From Burkholderiaceae bacterium (GTDB lineage: Bacteria > Pseudomonadota > Gammaproteobacteria > Burkholderiales > Burkholderiaceae), in assembly GCA_947448625.1 (NCBI GenBank), contig CANFOT010000004.1, positions 1 through 64,000 on the forward strand: a DNA stretch of 64,000 nucleotides, in the 5' to 3' direction. Positions 2,229-63,901 of this stretch are shown here, piece by piece. A program made the position numbers and the translations under genes. Under the pieces are notes generated by a model. It was given only the letters and a program-made list of their open reading frames with translations, was not told the origin of the DNA and made no database searches. Every line of letters starts with the position of its first letter. The first letter of the stretch is position 1.

Positions 2229-3105
2229 TTACGGAGTGGCTATCCCAGACGCGAGCATTAGAGCATTCAGCGGTACCGTCCCCCATGCAAGTATTTCCTT
2301 TTAACTGGTAGCGCCATGCACCGGTAACCCACCAATCTTTTTCTGCGTAATGTAAGTTAGGGCCAACAAAGGTAGCCTTTTGCACCTGATTTTGTAAGTT
2401 ATAGCTAGAGTAGTCGTTATGAAAACGAGCCTCAACGCCACCAGACCACTTGGGCGCGAATCGGTAACTAGCCCCAACAAGAAAGTCGAGCATAGATTCT
2501 GGGACATTACCGTTACCAACAAACTTCAATTGTTCGTTTGCGACAACTACGTTTCCGGCCAACACCAATTTGTCATCGATAAAGTTTGACTGAAGCAATA
2601 ACCTTGCCTCTATCTCATTCTTATTCTTCCCAATGGTTGGTTCCAAATAGACTCCCACACCAACTGGTGAGGTAACAGGATTGGTAATTCGATAAATTGC
2701 CTCCAGTGACCCACCTTCAACTCCACCTTTTCTGTAGGGTGAGGCTGGGTTGTGTGATTCTGGGACGGGTTGCCCGCCTGTACATGTAGGGCTGTCACCG
2801 CATGCTTCTGGATTAGTGTAGTTTTGGTTTGCATTGACGTAATAGGCATTGAGATAGCCAGCGAGCTGAAAATCGTTGGTGACGCCATACTCCAATTCAG
2901 AGCGTGAGAACCAAGCGTTGTATGACCCTGCAGCTTGTTGCTTGTTGAGTTGTAGGCGCTGCTCAAACTCCAATTTTCCTTTTGGCTGGAGATCTAGGGT
3001 GTAGATCCAACCAAACGCACCTTCTCCCGCGTTGGCAAAGGAGAAATGCAAGGCTGTGGCCAGTAAGGCGGCAAATAGGGCTATTCGTTTGATAGTCAGT
3101 TTCAT
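2191..3105 (-). CDS. outer-membrane beta-barrel-like protein (DUF6662-like)
   Basis: signal peptide, FGWIYTLDLQPKGKLEFEQRLQLNKQQAAGSYNAW..., alternating barrel-like sequence. Confidence 0.6.
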   Translation of the reverse strand: MKLTIKRIALFAALLATALHFSFANAGEGAFGWIYTLDLQPKGKLEFEQRLQLNKQQAAGSYNAWFSRSELEYGVTNDFQLAGYLNAYYVNANQNYTNPEACGDSPTCTGGQPVPESHNPASPYRKGGVEGGSLEAIYRITNPVTSPVGVGVYLEPTIGKNKNEIEARLLLQSNFIDDKLVLAGNVVVANEQLKFVGNGNVPESMLDFLVGASYRFAPKWSGGVEARFHNDYSSYNLQNQVQKATFVGPNLHYAEKDWWVTGAWRYQLKGNTCMGDGTAECSNARVWDSHSVNEFIVKVGFPLN

Positions 3106-3136
3106 GATGATCAGAGGTTGGTGGGTAAAAGTAATT

Positions 3137-3180
3137 GATAATCATTCGCAATATACAGCAAATGAGAATAGTTATCAATT
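3137..3180 (-). promoter_or_regulatory. two Fur-box-like sites upstream of the flavin module
   Basis: GATAATCATTCGCAATATA (13/19 to GATAATGATAATCATTATC) and AAATGAGAATAGTTATC (reverse of GATAACTATTCTCATTT) 32-75 nt upstream of the 3105 start codon. Confidence 0.6.
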
Positions 3181-3253
3181 GAGGAAATAACCACACCATG
3201 CTTGGTGTTGAGATTTACTCTGCAGATCAACTGAGCCTGTAAGATCCATAGCC

Positions 3254-3496
3254 ATGGATTCCGAAGCCCTTGAGAAACTTGTCACCATGAAAATGCCTTT
3301 TGGCAAACATGCGGGTCGTGCCCTTGCCGACTTACCAGGCAATTATTTAGCGTGGTTTGCTCGTGAAGGATTTCCCAAGAGTGAGCTTGGTCAGTTACTA
3401 GAGTTAATGCATACCCTCGATCACAATGGTTTACGGGGATTATTGGCGCCGATCCAGCGGGCCCATGGGATTCCTACTCGCACGCGCGAGTTTTAG
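3254..3496 (+). CDS. DUF3820 family protein
   Basis: MPFGKHAGRALADLPGNYLAWFAREGFPKSELGQLL. Confidence 0.85.
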   Translation: MDSEALEKLVTMKMPFGKHAGRALADLPGNYLAWFAREGFPKSELGQLLELMHTLDHNGLRGLLAPIQRAHGIPTRTREF

Positions 3497-3499
3497 TGA

Positions 3500-4519
3500 T
3501 TACTTAGAGCGCACTATCGCTATCACGCGATTTCGCTCGTAACTCACGTTGGGTGAAGCTGGCGGACTACTTTGGGAGAGGGTCGGCTGTATAAGCCCTT
3601 GCGCCCCAATCTCTTGCGCTAGCTTTTGGGCCAATTCAAGATTACGGTCATATTGAATCTGCACGCTAGCAACCTTTCCTGCTTTGATGCTGGCAATCAC
3701 CGCCGCCACTTTTTCGGAAGAGTACTGATCGAAGAAGACGGGGTACCAAGCGCCTATTGCTTGCTTAGCCTCAGCCATAGCTTTGGTGGGCTGAGCATTG
3801 AATTTGTCATCACCACTATCTATAGGGAGATGAAAGTCGATACCTGTTTTCTGAACGAGCTCTGAGTACGGTATGGGTGGACTCATTTGGGCTTCATCAG
3901 TGTTCTCAACCCAGTAAGCCCACGCCAATCTTTTGCTTGGGTCATAAACTAGCTTATATAGATGGCTTGGGATCGTGACTTTGCTTTTACCAATACTGCC
4001 AGCATGGCCAACGGATCCAGTAAACACGTAAATATCACCTTGGGCGCGCTTGACATACATCCTAGTTGGTTCTTCAACGCGTTTTGCCCAGATGCCCTGG
4101 TTGTTTTGTCTTGCTTGCGGCATCATATTTGCTAGGGAGAACGACTGCGCCATCCCCCTCTCCTGCGTCATGTCACCAGCAGGGACGTTGTGTCCGCGGT
4201 CATACCCGCTGCCTCGATAGTCAGTTAGTAGGGCGCGCTCATGAAAAGGAAGTCTAGCTTCTTCATAAAACTGGTTTGTACGACGAGGATGAGGTGCTTT
4301 CAGTTGAGTGGCATTGAGCTTCTCAACGGTATAAATAGGCCTTTTGTCGCTAGGTGAGTAGTAGATCGCGAAATCGTCAAAACACAGGTCTCGCCCTGCT
4401 TGAGTTGTACTGGGGATGCTCTGTGTGGGGAAAAGATCTTTACATTGATCAAAGAGTGCAGAGGCACTCAGTGGTAGCCAGAGGGCAATTAAGAGAGGGA
4501 GTTTGGCTAACCATTGCAT
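3500..4519 (-). CDS. DNA/RNA non-specific endonuclease (NucA/EndA-like), secreted
   Basis: signal peptide; GYDRGHNVPAGDM catalytic motif. Confidence 0.85.
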   Translation of the reverse strand: MQWLAKLPLLIALWLPLSASALFDQCKDLFPTQSIPSTTQAGRDLCFDDFAIYYSPSDKRPIYTVEKLNATQLKAPHPRRTNQFYEEARLPFHERALLTDYRGSGYDRGHNVPAGDMTQERGMAQSFSLANMMPQARQNNQGIWAKRVEEPTRMYVKRAQGDIYVFTGSVGHAGSIGKSKVTIPSHLYKLVYDPSKRLAWAYWVENTDEAQMSPPIPYSELVQKTGIDFHLPIDSGDDKFNAQPTKAMAEAKQAIGAWYPVFFDQYSSEKVAAVIASIKAGKVASVQIQYDRNLELAQKLAQEIGAQGLIQPTLSQSSPPASPNVSYERNRVIAIVRSK

Positions 4520-4594
4520 TACTTGTCAGTGTAATGAGTGCCATCAGGAAGAGAGGAATTTTCCTCTTGTTCGGTAATCAAGTTAGCTATAGAG

Positions 4595-4732
4595 CTAGTA
4601 TTTATCAGGACTTTTGAACATCTTGGTTATTTGTTTTCTTGAATTGCAAAGCCCTATCACCAAGGCAAATTCAACTTGAGGCAATCGGCTCAGAACACTA
4701 GCTGTAGAAAAAGAAGTCCTGATCAATACTAG
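4595..4732. repeat. 138-bp segment bounded by 19-bp inverted repeats
   Basis: CTAGTATTTATCAGGACTT (4595-4613) vs AAGTCCTGATCAATACTAG (4714-4732), 18/19 complementary, with inner TTGAATTGC/GCAAATTCAA. Confidence 0.7.
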
Positions 4733-5035
4733 ATGTATGGGTCTCAGCCTGCTTTTAAGGTTCAAAAATAGTAAATAAGTCGGATTTTGAAGGCTTTTTT
4801 ATTATATGAAATAAGTCCTCACTAACTTCCTTAAGTTATTGAAATTAAAGGATTAAATATAAATATTAGGGGAGTCCCTAAGGATCATCCCTATTTCAAT
4901 ACCTATAAGTTATAGAAATTGCATTCTTTATTCTTGACTTGATATAAGAACCTTCTTAGGATGACTCATGTTTTTTACTTATTGCATTGCAACATAAATC
5001 AGAAGTTTGATTCATGGGGTACTGCAAGACCATGA

Positions 5036-6019
5036 ATGATTAAATGCTTTTCTACCAATTCGAGTGACTTACAACTAGCGCAGCCAGCAAGGGCAAGCGC
5101 GAAAGAGTTGTTGGTTCACGCTTTCTCACCTGTGTATCGGGTGATGAATGGTTTGTTGATTGTGACTGTCTTCATGATCGTAGGTCTTTGGCTCTCTGGT
5201 AATGGAACCCAGGCAGGCGCCTTTGACTTAGCCCGCATATTAGTGCCCGATGAAGCTCGCCAAATGGTTTGGCAGAACGGCTTTGGAACACTCGATCAGT
5301 ATCAAGCTGAAGCTCCAAAGGCTGTAGCTGATAAAGAGTTTGCTAATGTGATTTATGGAAAAGGCTCATTAGCGCCTAATCGTGGCTTGATGAGTGCTAG
5401 ACAGCAGACGGTTGCTCTTTTGGTGCCGGCGGTTGCTCAGGCTCAAGTAAAGCCGATCTCGCATCTATCAGATCGGATCCCTGCCTCAAAGATAGATCCG
5501 CAGGCCTTGGATTCAAAGTTAATGGTGCCAATCCAAAATCAACGCGCTGTTGCTGATTTCTTTGAGAAGAAGTACAAGCTTGATCGCGCCAAGATTGAGG
5601 AATATGTCTCCAATACCGTATTAATTGCAAAAGAGGTCAATATTGATCCTGTCTTGTTGCTGGCGGTGATTTCGGTTGAGTCTAATTTCAATCCGCTGAC
5701 AAAGAGTCAGGCTGGGGCGGAAGGCTTGATGCAGGTGATGACCTCAATTCATCAAGATAAGTACGCTTTGTATGGCGGGGCTACGGATGCAGTTAAGCCT
5801 GAAGTCAACATTCGGGTGGGCGCATATATTTTGAAGTACCTGATTGCCACTAGCGGCTCATTGCGCAATGGCTTGAAATATTATGTTGGCGCTGCAAATG
5901 CCGAGAATGATGGCGGCTACGCCGATAAGGTGATGGCAGAAAGAAATCGCTTGATTGGTTTATGCCAGCCAGCAATACAAAATAAATTAACGCTGAACGG
6001 CAAAGATTTGCGTTCGTAA
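5036..6019 (+). CDS. lytic transglycosylase (SLT domain)
   Basis: LLAVISVESNFNPLTKSQAGAEGLMQVM... Confidence 0.9.
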   Translation: MIKCFSTNSSDLQLAQPARASAKELLVHAFSPVYRVMNGLLIVTVFMIVGLWLSGNGTQAGAFDLARILVPDEARQMVWQNGFGTLDQYQAEAPKAVADKEFANVIYGKGSLAPNRGLMSARQQTVALLVPAVAQAQVKPISHLSDRIPASKIDPQALDSKLMVPIQNQRAVADFFEKKYKLDRAKIEEYVSNTVLIAKEVNIDPVLLLAVISVESNFNPLTKSQAGAEGLMQVMTSIHQDKYALYGGATDAVKPEVNIRVGAYILKYLIATSGSLRNGLKYYVGAANAENDGGYADKVMAERNRLIGLCQPAIQNKLTLNGKDLRS

Positions 6020-42424: not shown

Positions 42425-42438
42425 TTGATATAGATCAA
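42425..42438. promoter_or_regulatory. FNR/Anr-type box
   Basis: TTGATATAGATCAA matches TTGATNNNNATCAA; overlaps TetR-like site. Confidence 0.4.
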
Positions 42439-42506: not shown

Positions 42507-43007
42507 ATGAATATTGAAGTATCTGGCAACCAATTTGACTCAAGAGAGCTTCGGAATGTCTTAGGGTCATTTGGAACGGGAGTTACGGTAGTGACAACTG
42601 TTGGAGCGTCTGGAGAACAGGTTGGCTTAACAGCAAATTCATTTAGCTCAGTTTCCTTAGATCCACCAATAGTTTTGTGGAGCCTAGGCAAGCAATCGCG
42701 CAATCTCCCCGTATTCCACGAATCAGGACGTTTTGTAGTTAATGTTCTGGGTGTGGATCAACTTCACCTATCAAATCAATTTGCAAAACCAGCGGACGAC
42801 CGGTTTGCTGGCGTGGAGTGCATTTCTGGCTTAGGTGGTTTGCCGGTGATATCAGGATGTGCGGCAAATATTGAGTGCGAAACAATCAGCGCTCAAGAGG
42901 TGGGTGACCATATTTTGTTTCTTGGAAGAATTGTGCGCTACACCCACATGAAAAAAGATTCATTACTTTTTTGCAATGGCGCATATGCGCGCGCAATTGA
43001 TGTTTAA
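42507..43007 (+). CDS. flavin reductase family protein (monooxygenase reductase component)
   Basis: LGSFGTGVTVVTTVGASGEQVGLTANSFSSVSLDPPIVLWSL. Confidence 0.93.
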   Translation: MNIEVSGNQFDSRELRNVLGSFGTGVTVVTTVGASGEQVGLTANSFSSVSLDPPIVLWSLGKQSRNLPVFHESGRFVVNVLGVDQLHLSNQFAKPADDRFAGVECISGLGGLPVISGCAANIECETISAQEVGDHILFLGRIVRYTHMKKDSLLFCNGAYARAIDV

Positions 43008-56919: not shown

Positions 56920-57405
56920 ATGCGTAATACTGCATTGCTTGATTTTTGTGCATACCTAGAGAACACTCCATTGGGTCTCGCAATACAAGATAATTTCTGG
57001 GTGGTTCCAACAATGCAAACTTTGCATATTTTGGCGATCTCAGCACTTCTAGTGTCGATTCTCATGATTGATTTGCGAGCGCTCGATTTGCATGGAAAAA
57101 GTGATTCAATTTCAACGATTGTTTCTCGTTACATCAATATTATTTGGTTTGCATTACCAATTCTCTTTATTTCCGGCAGCCTTTTGATTGTTGGGGAGCC
57201 CGCCCGATCTCTTGCCAATCCAGCATTTCAGCTAAAAATGATGATGTTGCTAATGGCTATCGTTATTACTCTTGGGATTCAAAAATTGGGATCTAGGAAT
57301 ATTGGCCTTGAGCAGGCTAATGGAAAAGTTAAGCTCTTGGCAATCCTTTCCCTGTTGTTATGGTTTGGCATTGTTGCCTCTGGTCGCTGGATTGCTTACA
57401 CCTAA
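56920..57405 (+). CDS. DUF6644-like membrane protein
   Basis: LENTPLGLAIQDNFWVVPTMQTLHILAISALLVSILMIDLRAL...SGRWIAYT. Confidence 0.75.
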   Translation: MRNTALLDFCAYLENTPLGLAIQDNFWVVPTMQTLHILAISALLVSILMIDLRALDLHGKSDSISTIVSRYINIIWFALPILFISGSLLIVGEPARSLANPAFQLKMMMLLMAIVITLGIQKLGSRNIGLEQANGKVKLLAILSLLLWFGIVASGRWIAYT

Positions 57406-57417
57406 CTATCAAAAAAA

Positions 57418-57924
57418 ATGAACGATATTCTTATTCTGCTGCATGGTAATCCGATTGCCCAAACTATTCGTGAAAATGAATTGCTGTTTCCATGGATCGA
57501 AGCGCTTCATGTTTTGGCAATCACACTAGTATTTGGTTCAATTGCATTGGTTGATTTGAGGCTGGTGGGAGTGCGCGCTTTAAGCCGCCCGATTAGCAAA
57601 ATTAGTGAAGAACTGCTTCCGGTGACATGGGTGGCATTTTTGGTGGCTGCAATTACGGGCGCAATCTTGTTTACCTCGAATGCACTTAGTTATAGCCAAA
57701 ACTTTTACTTTATCTCCAAGATCATTTTGCTTGCCTTGGCGGGCGTCAATATGTTGTGTTTTCAATTTATTATTGGCCGCAATCTTGAGGGGTGGAGTCA
57801 CCTTCAACAACTCCCAAATTCAGCACGTATTGCCGGGGCCATTTCACTCCTCCTATGGATCAGCATCATTATCTGTGGGCGCTGGATTGGTTTTACTCTC
57901 GAACCTGTTTTAGCAATTTCGTAA
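57418..57924 (+). CDS. DUF6644-like membrane protein (tandem paralogue)
   Basis: IAQTIRENELLFPWIEALHVLAITLVFGSIALVDLRLVG...CGRWIGFT. Confidence 0.75.
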   Translation: MNDILILLHGNPIAQTIRENELLFPWIEALHVLAITLVFGSIALVDLRLVGVRALSRPISKISEELLPVTWVAFLVAAITGAILFTSNALSYSQNFYFISKIILLALAGVNMLCFQFIIGRNLEGWSHLQQLPNSARIAGAISLLLWISIIICGRWIGFTLEPVLAIS

Positions 57925-57932
57925 GGAAAAAA

Positions 57933-58760
57933 ATGAATAGAAAACTACTGCCTCTAATTTGGGTCTTGAGTGCTGGCTTGATAAGCTCTAGTCTTGTATT
58001 TGCTCAAGCTGAAAAACCTATTATCAATCCACCACCAACTGCTAAAGATTGGGCCAATCTAGCCAAGCTACCAGACTGGAGTGGTGTTTGGAATCCCAAG
58101 ATTACAGACCAAGATAAGCAGGTTAAAACGAATATGCCGCCATGGGTCCCTGCCGCTAATGAGATGATTCAATTTCAATTGGCAGAAGAGAAGGCTGGCA
58201 GACCTCCTCCACTCTTTGTCAATTGTCTTCCTGAGGCGATGCCATCATGGATGCTGATTACGCACAATGCAATGGAGATTCTGTTTACGCCGGGTAGGGT
58301 GACATTGCTAGGAGAGTCGGACGGGAATCGTTTGCGTCGTATTTATACAGATGGCCGCCCCCATCCTGAAGATCCAGATCCAACATTTCATGGACATTCA
58401 ATTGGCAAGTGGGAGGGGGATACTCTGGTGGTAGATACCATCGGGATTTTGCCGCAATCGCTTATTGCTGTGAACGAAGCTGCTGGCGTCCCAAATAATG
58501 GCGATATGCGTGTTATTGAGCGGATTCATTTAGTCGGTAAAGACGAGTTGCATGATGATATTGAAGTCATTGCACCAAAAGTGTTCACTAAGCCATGGAA
58601 AACAACTCGAATTTTCTTTAGACAGCGCGCCAGAAAATTTGACATCGTTGAAGGTGTATGTCTAGAAGGATACTTTGCCCCCGGTAAAGATCAGCAAGGC
58701 AATGATATTTTTGTACCTATTCAGCACGATGTTGGTGGCAATCGCATTCCACCGCAATAA
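57933..58760 (+). CDS. exported protein of unknown function
   Basis: signal peptide MNRKLLPLIWVLSAGLISSSLVFAQ; PDWSGVWNP, HGHSIGKWEGDTLVVDT; ATG at 57933 preferred. Confidence 0.8.
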   Translation: MNRKLLPLIWVLSAGLISSSLVFAQAEKPIINPPPTAKDWANLAKLPDWSGVWNPKITDQDKQVKTNMPPWVPAANEMIQFQLAEEKAGRPPPLFVNCLPEAMPSWMLITHNAMEILFTPGRVTLLGESDGNRLRRIYTDGRPHPEDPDPTFHGHSIGKWEGDTLVVDTIGILPQSLIAVNEAAGVPNNGDMRVIERIHLVGKDELHDDIEVIAPKVFTKPWKTTRIFFRQRARKFDIVEGVCLEGYFAPGKDQQGNDIFVPIQHDVGGNRIPPQ

Positions 58761-58790
58761 TTATTTAAATTATTTTAAGGAAGAGTAATC

Positions 58791-59222
58791 TTGAAAATCA
58801 ACACAATAGCTAGTTTGGCAGCATTGATTATTGCTGCATCCGCGTCTATGCAAGCCTTAGCGCACCATTCAACCACTATGTTTGATAGGGAGAAGGTATT
58901 AACTATTACCGGTACGATAAAAGAAGTTCAATGGACAAACCCTCATGTGGCTATTTTTGTAATGGGCACCATCAATGATGGCGATAGTCCTACTCTGTGG
59001 CTAATGGAGATGACGAGTCCTGGTAACTTAGTGCGAGCCGGGGGCTGGAGTAGGAACGTTGTTAAGGCTGGGGATAAGGTTGTAGTGAACTTCAGTCCTT
59101 TACGAAACGGCACCAAGGGTGGAGCCCTTAAAAAGATCACCGTGGTTGATACTGGTAAGTTCTATACGGCCGATATTAGAGCTCAGGAAAGTGCAAATCT
59201 TGAAGAAAGAGAGCAGAAGTAG
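58791..59222 (+). CDS. DUF6152 family exported protein
   Basis: AHHSTTMFDREKVLTITGTIKEVQWTNPHVAIFV; starts TTG at 58791 after AGGAAGAG SD. Confidence 0.85.
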   Translation: MKINTIASLAALIIAASASMQALAHHSTTMFDREKVLTITGTIKEVQWTNPHVAIFVMGTINDGDSPTLWLMEMTSPGNLVRAGGWSRNVVKAGDKVVVNFSPLRNGTKGGALKKITVVDTGKFYTADIRAQESANLEEREQK

Positions 59223-59345: not shown

Positions 59346-59690
59346 CTATGAATTGCAACGGTTTTTCTCAGATTTTTTGGATGCGATAGCAAGATTTTTT
59401 GGATCAAAATATGGATTTGCTAGCGCTTTAGTAGTTTGGTTTCTTAAGAAAAAATGCTTCCATTGATCGCCGGTTTTAGTGTTGTTAATAGCAATGCAGC
59501 GACTCTCATTTAAGCGACTTTTAATTTCGATAAAGTTCATGCCGAATAGATTGCATGTGCGCGTCATTACATCTGGAGAGTTTTGCGAAGATTCTTTCCA
59601 CTCAGAAATACCATCACACTCACTTTTCTCATAGGCTTGAGTATTTGAAAGAGGAAAAAGAAGTGCAATTAACAATAAAATTTTTTTCAT
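59346..59690 (-). CDS. small exported hypothetical protein
   Basis: signal peptide MKKILLLIALLFPLSNTQAYE. Confidence 0.6.
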   Translation of the reverse strand: MKKILLLIALLFPLSNTQAYEKSECDGISEWKESSQNSPDVMTRTCNLFGMNFIEIKSRLNESRCIAINNTKTGDQWKHFFLRNQTTKALANPYFDPKNLAIASKKSEKNRCNS

Positions 59691-59759
59691 TACGCTAGAT
59701 TCTCACAAAGCCATTGGATAGCCATAACAATAAATACAGAAAGTATTTTTTGATATAAA

Positions 59760-59811
59760 ACTTTAGCTCTAGAGCCAACATTTTTTTGACTTAATACTTT
59801 AGCTCTAGAGC
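59760..59811 (+). promoter_or_regulatory. two direct copies of ACTTTAGCTCTAGAGC
   Basis: exact 16-mers at 59760-59775 and 59796-59811 (36-bp spacing). Confidence 0.85.
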
Positions 59812-59895
59812 TAGAAATTTCACAGTTTCCTAGATTAAGATTCTTCCGGCTAGAAGAAATTAGCTTTAATTTTATAATTTACAAAGGGAAGTTAA

Positions 59896-60057
59896 GTGAA
59901 CAAATTTAGTGTAAATTTAATCATAGCGGTATCCGCTTTTTTAATTGGCCTGGCAAGCGCCTCAGCTTTAAATCGATTTGACGTAGAAGAGCAGGCTCAT
60001 CTAATGCAAAGCGCCCAATCAGATCCTATGGGGAATGTTAGGGCTAATCAGGACTAA
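59896..60057 (+). CDS. 53-aa exported small protein, GTG start (not in ORF track)
   Basis: MNKFSVNLIIAVSAFLIGLASASALNRFDVEEQAHLMQSAQSDPMGNVRANQD; upstream TATAAT at 59873-59878. Confidence 0.6.
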   Translation: MNKFSVNLIIAVSAFLIGLASASALNRFDVEEQAHLMQSAQSDPMGNVRANQD

Positions 60058-60058
60058 T

Positions 60059-60074
60059 ACTTTAGTTCTAAGCC
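60059..60074 (+). promoter_or_regulatory. degenerate copy of the ACTTTAGCTCTAGAGC motif
   Basis: ACTTTAGTTCTAAGCC. Confidence 0.5.
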
Positions 60075-60083
60075 CCGCAAATA

Positions 60084-60125
60084 TTGACTTTAGTCAAGTA
60101 GTCGCGCAATGCTGAGCTTTATAAA
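60084..60125 (+). promoter_or_regulatory. FNR/Crp-family box plus -10, class II spacing
   Basis: TTGACTTTAGTCAA (60084-60097) centred 32 nt upstream of the centre of TATAAA (60120-60125). Confidence 0.55.
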
Positions 60126-60131
60126 TCAGAT

Positions 60132-60200
60132 TCCTAACTATTCAAACTGGCGTGACAGCTATTTGAATATTGATAACCACCTTTCGAGGTGGTTTTTTTT
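60132..60200 (+). ncRNA. candidate small RNA (about 68 nt, two stem-loops)
   Basis: TATTCAAA-CTG-gcgtga-CAG-cta-TTTGAATA hairpin followed by AACCACCT-TTCG-AGGTGGTT-TTTTTT terminator; no ORF. Confidence 0.45.
60175..60200 (+). terminator. intrinsic terminator
   Basis: AACCACCT-TTCG-AGGTGGTTTTTTTT, perfect 8-bp stem. Confidence 0.9.
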
Positions 60201-60223
60201 GGCATCGCTACCCACATAGACTG

Positions 60224-60922
60224 TCAGAAATGATAACCAAGTCCAAAAATAAAATCGTAGCCTGTTGCATCGGCTGTGGATCTGACGGTCGACCCACTAT
60301 CAGTTAGGACTGTTACTGGTTTGGCCCTATTAACCGCATAATTTCCCTCGCCAAATGCATAGATGGACTCGGTGATGAATTGCTTGTAACCCAAGCCATA
60401 AACCGTGCCGTTAACTCTATTGGATTGTTGGGGGTAGTTTCCGGGGGAGTTGGCATTGATAGTCGAGCCCGCATAACCTACTTTGGCATAGACCAATCGA
60501 GTGTTGTCAATTGCATATCCCGGGATGATGGTGAAGCTAAAAACATTAGACACATCATACGTTCCCGTCTTTACTATCGTGCCATTGGTAACTAGCGTAG
60601 AGCCAGCAGATCGTGAGTGGCCTGGATATAGCGCGGCCCCAATTCCGAGTAGATAATTTCCGCTAACCCCAAAGTTGTAGCCGACAGCAATATTGGCTGC
60701 CGGCCCATTTGCATGGTTTGCTGTTGCTGTGTTGCTATAAGCTGTGCCGCTAGAGGTGGTAGTTGTGCCACTTGCGCCTTTGGGGATATAACTCTCATAT
60801 CCAATAAGCCCAAGCTGACCGTATGCGCCTATCCAAGGATTTGGGGTGGATTCTGCATATACGTTTGCTGAAATAGATATGCTGAGTATCGATGCTATGT
60901 AGCTAAATTTAAGTACGCTCAT
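60224..60922 (-). CDS. outer-membrane beta-barrel protein
   Basis: signal peptide; Gly/aromatic barrel pattern ending YDFIFGLGYHF. Confidence 0.75.
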   Translation of the reverse strand: MSVLKFSYIASILSISISANVYAESTPNPWIGAYGQLGLIGYESYIPKGASGTTTTSSGTAYSNTATANHANGPAANIAVGYNFGVSGNYLLGIGAALYPGHSRSAGSTLVTNGTIVKTGTYDVSNVFSFTIIPGYAIDNTRLVYAKVGYAGSTINANSPGNYPQQSNRVNGTVYGLGYKQFITESIYAFGEGNYAVNRAKPVTVLTDSGSTVRSTADATGYDFIFGLGYHF

Positions 60923-60944
60923 TCTTTGTCTTGGTTTATTAAAG

Positions 60945-62702
60945 TTATTTTTTTAGAAGTAATTTGATTGCATCAACAATGTCGCTATAGCCTATGGGTT
61001 TATAGAGAACCTTGATATTTAATTCTTTAAATAATTGAATGTGCTGAGGTGAGGTATCGGCGGTAATGATGATTGCCGGAATATCTATACCGAAGCTATC
61101 TCGCAACTGCTGAATAATGAGATCTCCAGTAGTCGTCTCAAGGCGATAGTCGCTTAAGATGCAGTCAATGTGATTGATGTTGGCTAGCTGATTCATTAGG
61201 GACTGGCTATTCTCGGGGAGTGAGAGTACGGCAAATCCATTTTGCGTTAATGCCTGCTTGTAGGCATCAAAAATCGTGTGATCATCCTCAAAAACAGCAA
61301 TAGTTTTAGTCTCTAAAAGAACTTCTTGTGGACTTGGGCTTTCATGCGATACGTTTTTGATGAGACTTTCAGATCCATCTCTTAGGGGGAGGGAGGGATA
61401 TTTTGTATGAAGGGTGATGGTTGTTCCAGATCCTAGGACGGAGTTAACGGATAGCTCTGTATCGGAGAGCTTGCAAAGTCTTTTAACAATAGAGAGCCCA
61501 AGACCAAGTCCATCATGCATATTTCGGGTGCTATCCACTCTAAAAAATTCATCAAATATTTTATCTAGCAGGGTTGAGTCGATTCCGCAGCCAGTATCTT
61601 CAATCGTCATGTGCAAGCAATTATTCACGGCGGTGGCTTTTACCAGGATAGTTCCTATCGCGGTGTATTGAATGGCATTAGAAATGAGGTTGCCCATCAA
61701 CTGCTGAAGCAGTAGCTTGTCACCATTGATCCCCATATTCATGAAGTCAAACTGAAGCACTAAATTCTTATTGGATGCAATTGGGGTGTAGGTGTTTGAT
61801 AAAAAGCCAATCAACTCGATAAGCTCAAATGGTTTTTCTAGCTTATCTGAAGCGCCTGCATCTAGCTTACTTAAGTCCAATAGAGAGCTAAACATAGAAT
61901 TTAAGGTTTTAATACTTTTCCTGATTTGTAGGAAATTGATTCTTTCTTTGGGATTGAGCTTATTTGGCTCAAATAGATCTAGATAGATATTTACGGCATG
62001 TAGTGGTTGTCTCAAATCATGGCTTGCCGTTGCAATAAATTTGGATTTTGCAATGTTTGCAGTAATTGCACTATTGCGCTCAAACTCAAGTGCCTTATTT
62101 AGGGTCTGATTTTGTATTTGTAGGCTAATCGTTTTTACCCATGACTTAGAGAAATACGACGCCATCTTTATTGCATATAAGGAGAATGCAAATTCTCCCA
62201 GAAGAATGGGCCATGGGAACATGAATGGAGGGATGAGTGAGACAATAAATTGCCCAATAAAGATCGGTAAAGCAAAGCATAGGAATGTCGGTCGATGAAT
62301 CGAGTAGCCATAGAGGCCCACAAAAACTGCTGTTGAACTCATCAAGAGATATAGACATTGCAGGTTAAATGGCAGAGTCGGTGTAACAATTAGCCATCCT
62401 AGCCCCCAGCAGGCAGTCACCGTGAACACACCTAGATTTAGGTTGAAGATCTTTTTCTTGGTGGATAGCGTTTGATCTTTATTTTTAGAAAAGACCATAT
62501 AGGCCCTGAAGGCCACGCATAAAGCCATTGTCGTAAGCCAGACAATCAGATTCCCAAGAGCGGCTTCTTGAAATATCAAGGCCCCAGTAAGTACTGGGCC
62601 AATAACTGTCCCTGCAGTATTTGCCTTAGAGGCCGTTTCAAGAAATTGATATTTTTCTTCTAAAAGCAGCTCTTCATTGTTTTGCATGGAGTATGTATCC
62701 AT
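60945..62702 (-). CDS. membrane hybrid histidine kinase with C-terminal receiver
   Basis: multi-TM N-terminus; IATASHDLRQPLHAVNIYLDLF (H box); IEDTGCGID, GLGLGLSIVKRL; receiver FEDDHTIFDAY...DCILSDYRL...YKPIG. Confidence 0.95.
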   Translation of the reverse strand: MDTYSMQNNEELLLEEKYQFLETASKANTAGTVIGPVLTGALIFQEAALGNLIVWLTTMALCVAFRAYMVFSKNKDQTLSTKKKIFNLNLGVFTVTACWGLGWLIVTPTLPFNLQCLYLLMSSTAVFVGLYGYSIHRPTFLCFALPIFIGQFIVSLIPPFMFPWPILLGEFAFSLYAIKMASYFSKSWVKTISLQIQNQTLNKALEFERNSAITANIAKSKFIATASHDLRQPLHAVNIYLDLFEPNKLNPKERINFLQIRKSIKTLNSMFSSLLDLSKLDAGASDKLEKPFELIELIGFLSNTYTPIASNKNLVLQFDFMNMGINGDKLLLQQLMGNLISNAIQYTAIGTILVKATAVNNCLHMTIEDTGCGIDSTLLDKIFDEFFRVDSTRNMHDGLGLGLSIVKRLCKLSDTELSVNSVLGSGTTITLHTKYPSLPLRDGSESLIKNVSHESPSPQEVLLETKTIAVFEDDHTIFDAYKQALTQNGFAVLSLPENSQSLMNQLANINHIDCILSDYRLETTTGDLIIQQLRDSFGIDIPAIIITADTSPQHIQLFKELNIKVLYKPIGYSDIVDAIKLLLKK

Positions 62703-62705
62703 GCT

Positions 62706-63299
62706 CTATACCAAGCCATTTTCTTTTGCTTTGATGACGGCTTGAGTTCTATTGAATACTTTAATTTTCTTAAAGATTTCACCTAAATGAACCTTCACAG
62801 TCTGCTCGCTAATATTGAGGGAGTAGGCAATCATCTTATTTGAGTCGCCATTAGAAATATGGCTGAGAATTTGTTTCTGCCTATCTGTCAGCCTGGTTAC
62901 TTCAGGCTCCTTTGGGCATAAGCCCATTAATTCGCAGAGGCTTTGATAAATATATGAAGTTTCACTGCTCTTGGGAATGAAAATGCTACAGCCGGCCTCA
63001 AGACATTCTTTTTCTAAGGCCTCTTTCTCAAGGCCAGAAATGGCGGCAATGGCCACCACCTCTTCAAGCTTTTTAAATTCCGTTATGCCAAAGAATTGAC
63101 TTTCCGAGTCTGGAATTAGAAGGTCTAAAAGTATTATCCATTTCGACTTTTTAGAGTGGACTATCTTTAATCCCTCTTTGATCGAATTTGCTGAAAAGAC
63201 CTGATTCCCTGATGCAAAGAATTTGCGGGTTAAAAACTGGTGAAGGGCATCCCTGTAGACCGGATGGTCATCTACGATCAGCAGTGACATCGAATGCAT
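62706..63299 (-). CDS. NarL/LuxR-type response regulator
   Basis: SLLIVDDHPVYRDAL...ILLDLLIPD...LTDRQKQILSHISNGDSNKMIAYSLNISEQTVKVHLGEIFKKI. Confidence 0.96.
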   Translation of the reverse strand: MHSMSLLIVDDHPVYRDALHQFLTRKFFASGNQVFSANSIKEGLKIVHSKKSKWIILLDLLIPDSESQFFGITEFKKLEEVVAIAAISGLEKEALEKECLEAGCSIFIPKSSETSYIYQSLCELMGLCPKEPEVTRLTDRQKQILSHISNGDSNKMIAYSLNISEQTVKVHLGEIFKKIKVFNRTQAVIKAKENGLV

Positions 63300-63379
63300 A
63301 GATACCCTTGTTTTTAGGCTAAGTAGTGCGCATATTTAGAGGGATTTATTATGTCATCCATCATATTTGTATTTCTAAT

Positions 63380-63393
63380 ACTTTAGCTCTAGA
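63380..63393 (+). promoter_or_regulatory. ACTTTAGCTCTAGA motif copy
   Basis: exact match, in 17-mer AATACTTTAGCTCTAGA shared with 59793-59809. Confidence 0.8.
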
Positions 63394-63400
63394 TAAGGGG

Positions 63401-63414
63401 TTGACTCAGATCAA
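63401..63414. promoter_or_regulatory. FNR/Anr-type box
   Basis: TTGACTCAGATCAA (TTGAC-N4-ATCAA). Confidence 0.45.
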
Positions 63415-63499
63415 TTAATTGGATTTAACCACATATTTGGGCTCAATATTAGGGCTTTCACTTAGCTTGAGCTGATGGCGCGAAATGCCAATTTGCTTG

Positions 63500-63512
63500 C
63501 TAGAGCTAAAGT
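63500..63512 (-). promoter_or_regulatory. ACTTTAGCTCTAG motif copy (reverse)
   Basis: CTAGAGCTAAAGT. Confidence 0.8.
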
Positions 63513-63573
63513 TCTATAGATGCGAATCAGTGGCGATCTTAGGATGGTTCAAATTCAATCTCTGGAGATCTAC

Positions 63574-63901
63574 CATGCCATCAACCTCTTTTTTTAGTCG
63601 TCATTCATTGATTGCCTTGCTGACATTAGCCACTCTTATTTTTGGCTCCGTAGCGATTGCCGGAACGCAGATTCAGGCTGGCATTGATGCGCAGTATCGG
63701 GAAGATCGAAATAACCCACACCGGATCCCAAGCCCCATAGATTCCAAGTCTCAAGAAATATTGCAAGAGGCTATAGTTATCAGGGGTGAAGTTAAGGAGG
63801 AGGCTGTGGAACTAGTTGATACTATTCACAGCCTTGCTTTTAGAGGGCAGAACAGCTATTCACAGCCAATTTTGGATTACACGACAGGAACATCGAACTA
63901 A
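63574..63901 (+). CDS. small exported hypothetical protein
   Basis: MPSTSFFSRHSLIALLTLATLIFGSVAIAGTQIQAGIDAQYRED...; ATG at 63574 preceded by CTGGAGAT. Confidence 0.65.

Follow-up and report, generated by a model that had tools for sequence, protein, structure and literature searches.

Within a stretch of 64,000 nucleotides (nt) from a Burkholderiaceae bacterium (positions 1 to 64,000 of contig CANFOT010000004.1, assembly GCA_947448625.1; hereafter the window), we describe what is very probably an autoregulated NarL-type two-component regulon, with FNR as a second input and a predicted small RNA as an output. The genome belongs to the genus Polynucleobacter; in a scan of named genomes with the regulator alignment, Polynucleobacter species (P. 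parvulilacunae, P. finlandensis and others) matched at 54–88% identity, and Limnohabitans and other Comamonadaceae at ~40%. An initial annotation of the window had proposed, from a repeated 13-mer, an autoregulated two-component system controlling small exported proteins. That proposal is well supported, with binding by the adjacent regulator as its predicted element, and three parts of it are revised here: the repeating unit is a 16-bp inverted repeat in a 7-2-7 arrangement and not a 13-mer, a predicted small RNA and the gene of an outer-membrane protein join the membership, and the regulator appears to share two promoters with FNR.

The 13-mer ACTTTAGCTCTAG was re-found as four exact copies, at 59760, 59796 and 63380 on the plus strand and at 63500 on the minus strand, all outside genes as had been claimed, and the degenerate fifth copy reported at 60059 is present on the plus strand with two mismatches. 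Repetition beyond chance was likewise borne out, with 6 matches of up to two mismatches in the window against 1.5 expected. The whole assembly (1,763,325 bases, 82% complete) holds five exact matches, and none of the reversed pattern used as a control, which excludes the generic interspersed repeat that the initial annotation had itself raised as a threat to its reading. The sole exact copy outside the window (C15:14934; C, G and L numbers are our labels for contigs, genomes and loci) lies within the smc coding sequence and was for that reason dropped as a regulon member. Two details needed adjustment. The 17-mer said to be common to two copies is one base longer, an 18-mer TAATACTTTAGCTCTAGA at 59792–59809 and 63376–63393, and the perfect palindrome TAGCTCTAGAGCTA (59800–59813) does exist but as a single copy absent from orthologous loci, and is therefore incidental and ruled out as a functional unit.

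The 13-mer represents one register of the 16-bp box, read on the opposite strand. A search of 18 loci gave 83 candidate sites, against 10 expected by chance, with the consensus TAGAGCT-AA-AGTATTA in promoter orientation. Perfect examples of this NarL-like 7-2-7 repeat are TAGTACT-AA-AGTACTA and TAGAACT-AA-AGTTCTA. Bases T1, A2, T7, A8, T15 and A16 are near-invariant among the candidate sites; C6, G11 and T12 were required by the search. The boxes are the predicted, two-fold symmetric landing sites of the regulator encoded at 62706–63299. The genes and sites of the locus are as follows, all -10 hexamers being inferred.

59346–59690, minus strand: small exported protein of 114 amino acids with four conserved cysteines; other small genes take its place in some genomes
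59756–59771, minus strand: proximal box of gene 59690, TAGAGCT-AA-AGTTTTA, with the -10 hexamer TATTGT (59727–59732) 23 nt downstream
59792–59807, minus strand: distal partner in the tandem pair, 36 bp away
59896–60057, plus strand: small exported protein of 53 amino acids, a conserved reading frame with a GTG start, its TAA stop overlapping the box at 60055
60055–60070, plus strand: regulator box TAATACT-TT-AGTTCTA, centred at -69.5 of the small RNA promoter
60084–60097, plus strand: FNR box TTGACTTTAGTCAA, centred at -41.5 (class II), 22 nt from TATAAA
60120–60125, plus strand: -10 hexamer TATAAA of the small RNA
60132–60200, plus strand: predicted small RNA of ~69 nt, with a stem-loop (TATTCAAA/TTTGAATA) and a rho-independent terminator
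60224–60922, minus strand: predicted outer-membrane beta-barrel protein, third gene of the operon
60945–62702, minus strand: hybrid histidine kinase
62706–63299, minus strand: NarL/LuxR-type response regulator, first gene of the operon and presumed binder of the boxes
63348–63353, minus strand: -10 hexamer CATAAT of the operon (inferred start ~63341)
63376–63391, minus strand: regulator box of the operon promoter, TAGAGCT-AA-AGTATTA
63401–63414, minus strand: FNR box TTGATCTGAGTCAA of the operon promoter, centred at -66.5
63501–63516, plus strand: regulator box of the exported-protein promoter, TAGAGCT-AA-AGTTCTA, centred at -43.5
63540–63545, plus strand: -10 hexamer TAGGAT of gene 63575
63575–63901, plus strand: small exported protein of 108 amino acids, with NNPHxIP and a C-terminal DYTTGTSN conserved in a 20-row alignment

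The spacing of box and promoter is fixed. At the operon promoter exactly 22 nt separate the box from the -10 hexamer (CATAAT, AATAAT or CACAAT) in 15 of 15 genomes, placing its centre at -42.5 from the inferred start, and a good -35 hexamer is lacking there. Across the same intergenic region, orthologues of gene 63575 carry TAGGAT, TAAGAT, TAGCAT, TAACAT or TAATAT 23 nt past the box; the conserved start of this gene is 63575 and not that of the longer 63485 reading frame. A third small gene follows a tandem pair of boxes, 33–36 bp apart, and then TAnnnT at 22–23 nt, in nearly all orthologous loci. In one of these (L070:10900–12150, genome G071) an IS30-type transposase sequence lies between the 53-amino-acid gene/RNA unit and the tandem boxes, with box spacing and -10 kept. 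In G034, whose regulator is the most divergent (54% identity), a box lies between the genes. None of the small exported proteins has a Pfam or NCBIfam name. That the 59896 frame might be a non-coding artefact was excluded by its codon-position pattern and by pairwise ratios of non-synonymous to synonymous substitution rates of 0.11–0.37.

The first operon gene encodes REC and GerE domains (PF00072 and PF00196, both above gathering scores), and its nearest solved structures are NarL and VraR. Its phosphorylation pocket (D10, D11, D59, S88 and K110) is invariant across 11 regulator orthologues, and the protein thus combines the domain pair and the pocket that define NarL/FixJ (LuxR helix-turn-helix, HTH) response regulators. 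The kinase has HisKA, HATPase_c and C-terminal REC domains by Pfam, preceded by a hydrophobic multi-pass N-terminus of ~200 residues that matches no known family. The third gene product has no Pfam or NCBIfam match; its structural model, of moderate confidence (mean predicted local distance difference test score, pLDDT, 66), resembles OprG/OmpW- and OmpA-type barrels and supports an outer-membrane beta barrel of OmpW/OprG- or OmpA-like type, a model that allows nothing finer. The regulator–kinase–barrel order is syntenic in orthologous loci of the genus wherever the contig reaches, with boxes at equivalent places.

Boxes and regulator occur together across the genus. Among 101 genus genomes, close regulator orthologues (at least 54% identity) were found in our own genome and 11 others. 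Two or more boxes are present in all 12 regulator-positive genomes but in only two of the other 89 (Fisher p ~8e-14, uncorrected for relatedness), and gene 63575 in 11/12 versus 3/89. A box precedes the copies of that gene beside the regulator but is missing upstream of its readable homologues in the regulator-negative genomes G011 and G095 and of a second copy in G033. The two regulator-negative box carriers are G039, with three boxes, and G089. The G039 locus (L150:1–1178) has a kinase truncated at the contig start and keeps the barrel gene, the RNA and three boxes, with no regulator found; this state reflects either an assembly gap or recent loss. In G033 the unit of 53-amino-acid gene, box, small RNA and tandem pair lies 393 kb from the regulator operon with its boxes kept, and control of it would therefore have to act in trans.

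Conservation of the motif beside orthologous kinase/regulator pairs, on which the initial annotation had staked its proposal, holds within the genus and extends to another family, where a diverged box takes the equivalent position. We read eight regions upstream of orthologous regulators, from Comamonadaceae and one Burkholderiales bin, where the regulator is 39–43% identical and the kinase, where present, 37–39%. Six of the eight share ACCTAAGTTT upstream of the regulator. The diverged box, TAAAACC-TA-AGTTTCA, retains a core ACY-WA-AGT identical to that of the Polynucleobacter box, and lies exactly 22 nt ahead of TAGCAT, TACGAT or TAATAT in L201, L202, L204, L205, L208 and L211. It occurs exactly once per genome in these same six genomes, at the regulator; one-mismatch versions in Comamonadaceae, mostly within genes and lacking a -10 at 22 nt, were set aside. 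The simplest reading of these sequences would be conserved autoregulation with divergence of the operator. Some neighbours of the orthologous pairs may hint at the kinase signal: a PF13557 outer-membrane protein directly 3' of the kinase (L206), ModE-like and molybdate/formate-dehydrogenase-like genes (L208), and a pyrroloquinoline quinone-type dehydrogenase-like reading frame (L201).

A second input appears to be FNR. In 14 of 15 genomes TTGATCTTGGTCAA or a close variant precedes the regulator box, at a distance of 9 bp in 13 and of 18 bp in one, and 8/8 core bases of the operon FNR box are present in 14/15. The pattern TTGATNTNRRTCAA has 13 matches in our own genome versus none for its reversed control, several of them upstream of cbb3 oxidase, formate dehydrogenase, cytochrome c oxidase and cytochrome c genes (gene names read from translations). 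One PF00325 protein is encoded in this genome, at C1:40613 adjoining ccoG; it carries the N-terminal Fe-S cysteines of FNR (C13, C16 and C22, plus a later Cys). The assignment to FNR rests on these genome matches, on this protein and on what is generally known of FNR sites, from which in part we take TTGATNTNRRTCAA-type boxes to be such sites. A further FNR-type box, TTGATATAGATCAA, lies elsewhere in the window at 42425–42438, ~70 bp upstream of a flavin-reductase-like gene (42507–43007).

Behind the 53-amino-acid gene, a small RNA is predicted from a promoter of the same elements in mirrored order. Relative to the inferred start, 7/9 loci have the FNR box centred at -41.5 and 8/9 have a regulator box centred at -69.5 or -70.5. 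Fold z scores of the RNA lie between -2.7 and -3.9, with modest covariation (3/17 pairs of the consensus fold). R1, a covariance model made from nine loci, exceeds 80 bits in no genomes but its nine sources, eight with the regulator and G039 with its kinase remnant; matches there are expected, and the informative part is absence elsewhere in the genus. No Rfam 15 family matches the RNA, the best being Phe_leader at 24.7 of 55 bits. A leftward promoter at box 60055, antisense to 59896, is less likely, as no -10 is well placed leftward and the FNR box and TATAAA point right. A less probable account, which nonetheless deserves weight, is that the stem-loops at 60132–60200 are just the 3' end and terminator of the 59896 mRNA. 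They do follow the 53-amino-acid gene in 8/9 loci (a different small gene in L075), and in regulator-less G011 (L164:1004–1352) a hairpin and terminator similar to the 3' portion of the RNA (48.6 bits) stand directly 3' of a 63575-type gene, hinting that the RNA may descend from the 3' end of such a gene. However, in most loci TATAAA and an FNR box at exactly -41.5 come before the stem-loops, and the conservation of the upstream stem-loop and of the 5' bases exceeds the requirements of a terminator.

Several points weigh against the regulon as we propose it. As the genomes are relatives of one another, the p values for co-occurrence treat them as more independent than they are, and all transcription starts were read from -10-like hexamers. 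The FNR box of the small RNA is degenerate in L066 and L143 and absent in L075; G012, G073 and G034 have the regulator and no strong match to the RNA; no convincing local target of the RNA was found, no gene being distinguished by its duplex energy from shuffled sequences. Repression instead of activation is also possible at some sites.

The described systems nearest to ours are CrbR/ErdR with its ACTU motif and the NarL promoters of Escherichia coli. NarL acts from a single 7-2-7 site next to the core promoter, or from tandem sites at -44.5/-77.5 in ogt (PMC7419079), an arrangement of the NarL site that has been described (PMC9314961), and CrbR from an imperfect inverted repeat, the ACTU motif, at -52 to -36, e.g. 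TACGACTAAAGTCTAAA (PMC5715377). Our boxes share with Escherichia coli NarL (yeaR, ogt) the 7-2-7 repeat and its placement, singly by the core promoter or in tandem ~33 bp apart, whereas the heptamer differs (TACYNMT in NarL, TAGAGCT in the window), as does the partner kinase. The CrbS/CrbR (MxtR/ErdR) pair of the Pseudomonas/Vibrio acetate regulon likewise combines a LuxR-type regulator, a hybrid kinase and an inverted repeat just before the promoter; its kinase, however, carries SLC5/STAC, in contrast to the HisKA, HATPase_c and REC alone that Pfam finds in the window kinase, and it acts on acetate genes, in place of which the proposed regulon has genes for small exported proteins and for a barrel protein, plus a small RNA. 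The best NCBIfam match of the regulator is ErdR (NF041830), at 93.2 bits against a cut-off of 390, and that of the kinase the NahK/ErcS family (NF041832), at 237.7 bits against 400; the latter shares the HisKA-HATPase-REC core, and our kinase differs by its N-terminal multi-pass membrane domain of no known family. The system would work like the NarL and CrbR regulons and, with both family cut-offs unreached, is placed as a NarL-type two-component system that is neither ErdR nor NahK. FnrS of E. coli and AniS of Neisseria are FNR-activated small RNAs, short and with a terminator and an FNR promoter like ours, a likeness compared here via Rfam. The window RNA differs from them in having no Rfam sequence match, an additional two-component site at -70 and a position 3' of a small exported-protein gene.

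With the pattern TANNACTTTRGYNCTA our own genome contains six boxes, five at the window locus and one at a GGDEF gene; none lies at an acetate gene in this 82% complete genome, in which acs was not located. The sixth is a perfect box, TAGTACT-TT-AGTACTA (C8:6912–6927; L145:3413–3428), between another NarL-type regulator (2615–3340, minus strand) and an NMT1-GGDEF protein (3521–5134, plus strand), 22 nt from TACTAT on the GGDEF side; it is one more target or else serves a paralogous regulator. Beyond our genome, unlinked boxes in conserved upstream sequence occur at L144, L146 and L147 (G091:C1:2004059, G034:C2:7694 and G071:C11:197465), two of them followed by an exported protein of 46–51 amino acids, MG.KHLVVGFVIGLFVGVVSASTLEVGKIGFTKDG.ITYLNQACSN, a candidate extra member with no clear -10 at 22 nt. 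Lone boxes in G004, G013, G046, at G035:C2:413740 and elsewhere, several inside reading frames, were not taken as members. Next to the regulon, the interval 56920–59222 has no boxes; it encodes two neighbouring DUF6644 membrane proteins and a DUF6152 exported protein, and an OprB porin lies past it.

It is improbable that another protein, for example the C8 NarL-type regulator or a CrbR-like one, binds the boxes and that the adjacent regulator is merely a target. The perfect relative TAGTACT-AA-AGTACTA beside the C8 regulator and the resemblance to the CrbR motif would fit this; yet regulator-less genomes lack boxes despite having other LuxR-HTH regulators, and in Comamonadaceae the box diverges along with the regulator and occurs once, at the regulator promoter. 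We give equally little credence to a regulator that represses from beside the core promoter until the kinase signal relieves it. The box does abut the -35 region, and position alone is no proof of activation, but the 22/23-nt spacing is fixed over 15 genomes, the operon promoter has no good -35 hexamer, and NarL and CrbR sites at the equivalent position have an established activating role (PMC7419079, PMC5715377). Chance or a mobile interspersed repeat, suggested by the shortness of the motif and the transposase sequence in the region in one relative (L070), has practically no standing and is already refuted by the conservation of 83 sites (10 expected) across 18 loci at fixed promoter positions.

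We postulate that the hybrid kinase, sensing some envelope or membrane signal, would control phosphorylation of the regulator, whose active dimer would bind the 16-bp boxes, as their sequence, geometry and co-occurrence suggest. From -42.5/-43.5 it would activate its own operon and the divergent exported-protein gene, and through the tandem pair the third small gene, in the manner of NarL at ogt. Oxygen would enter through FNR, whose boxes are at -66.5 for the operon and at -41.5 for the small RNA, where the regulator box lies at about -70, and the RNA would presumably adjust other mRNAs in trans. Low oxygen and the kinase signal could together remodel the envelope through small exported proteins, the barrel protein and the RNA.

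An open-access literature search on the genus and two-component systems found no description of such a system. Polynucleobacter, a genus of small genomes, is common in fresh water, and the evidence is evenly poised on whether it harbours an envelope regulon with two inputs, oxygen through FNR and the kinase signal, an undescribed small RNA behind the 53-amino-acid gene, and mirrored sites (regulator -42.5/FNR -66.5 at the operon, FNR -41.5/regulator -70 at the RNA). Regulator, operator, promoter geometry and a likely small RNA form a compact set, predicted to the base and testable with few promoter fusions. Across two lineages, a CrbR/NarL-like box and its regulator would have diverged jointly while keeping one promoter geometry.

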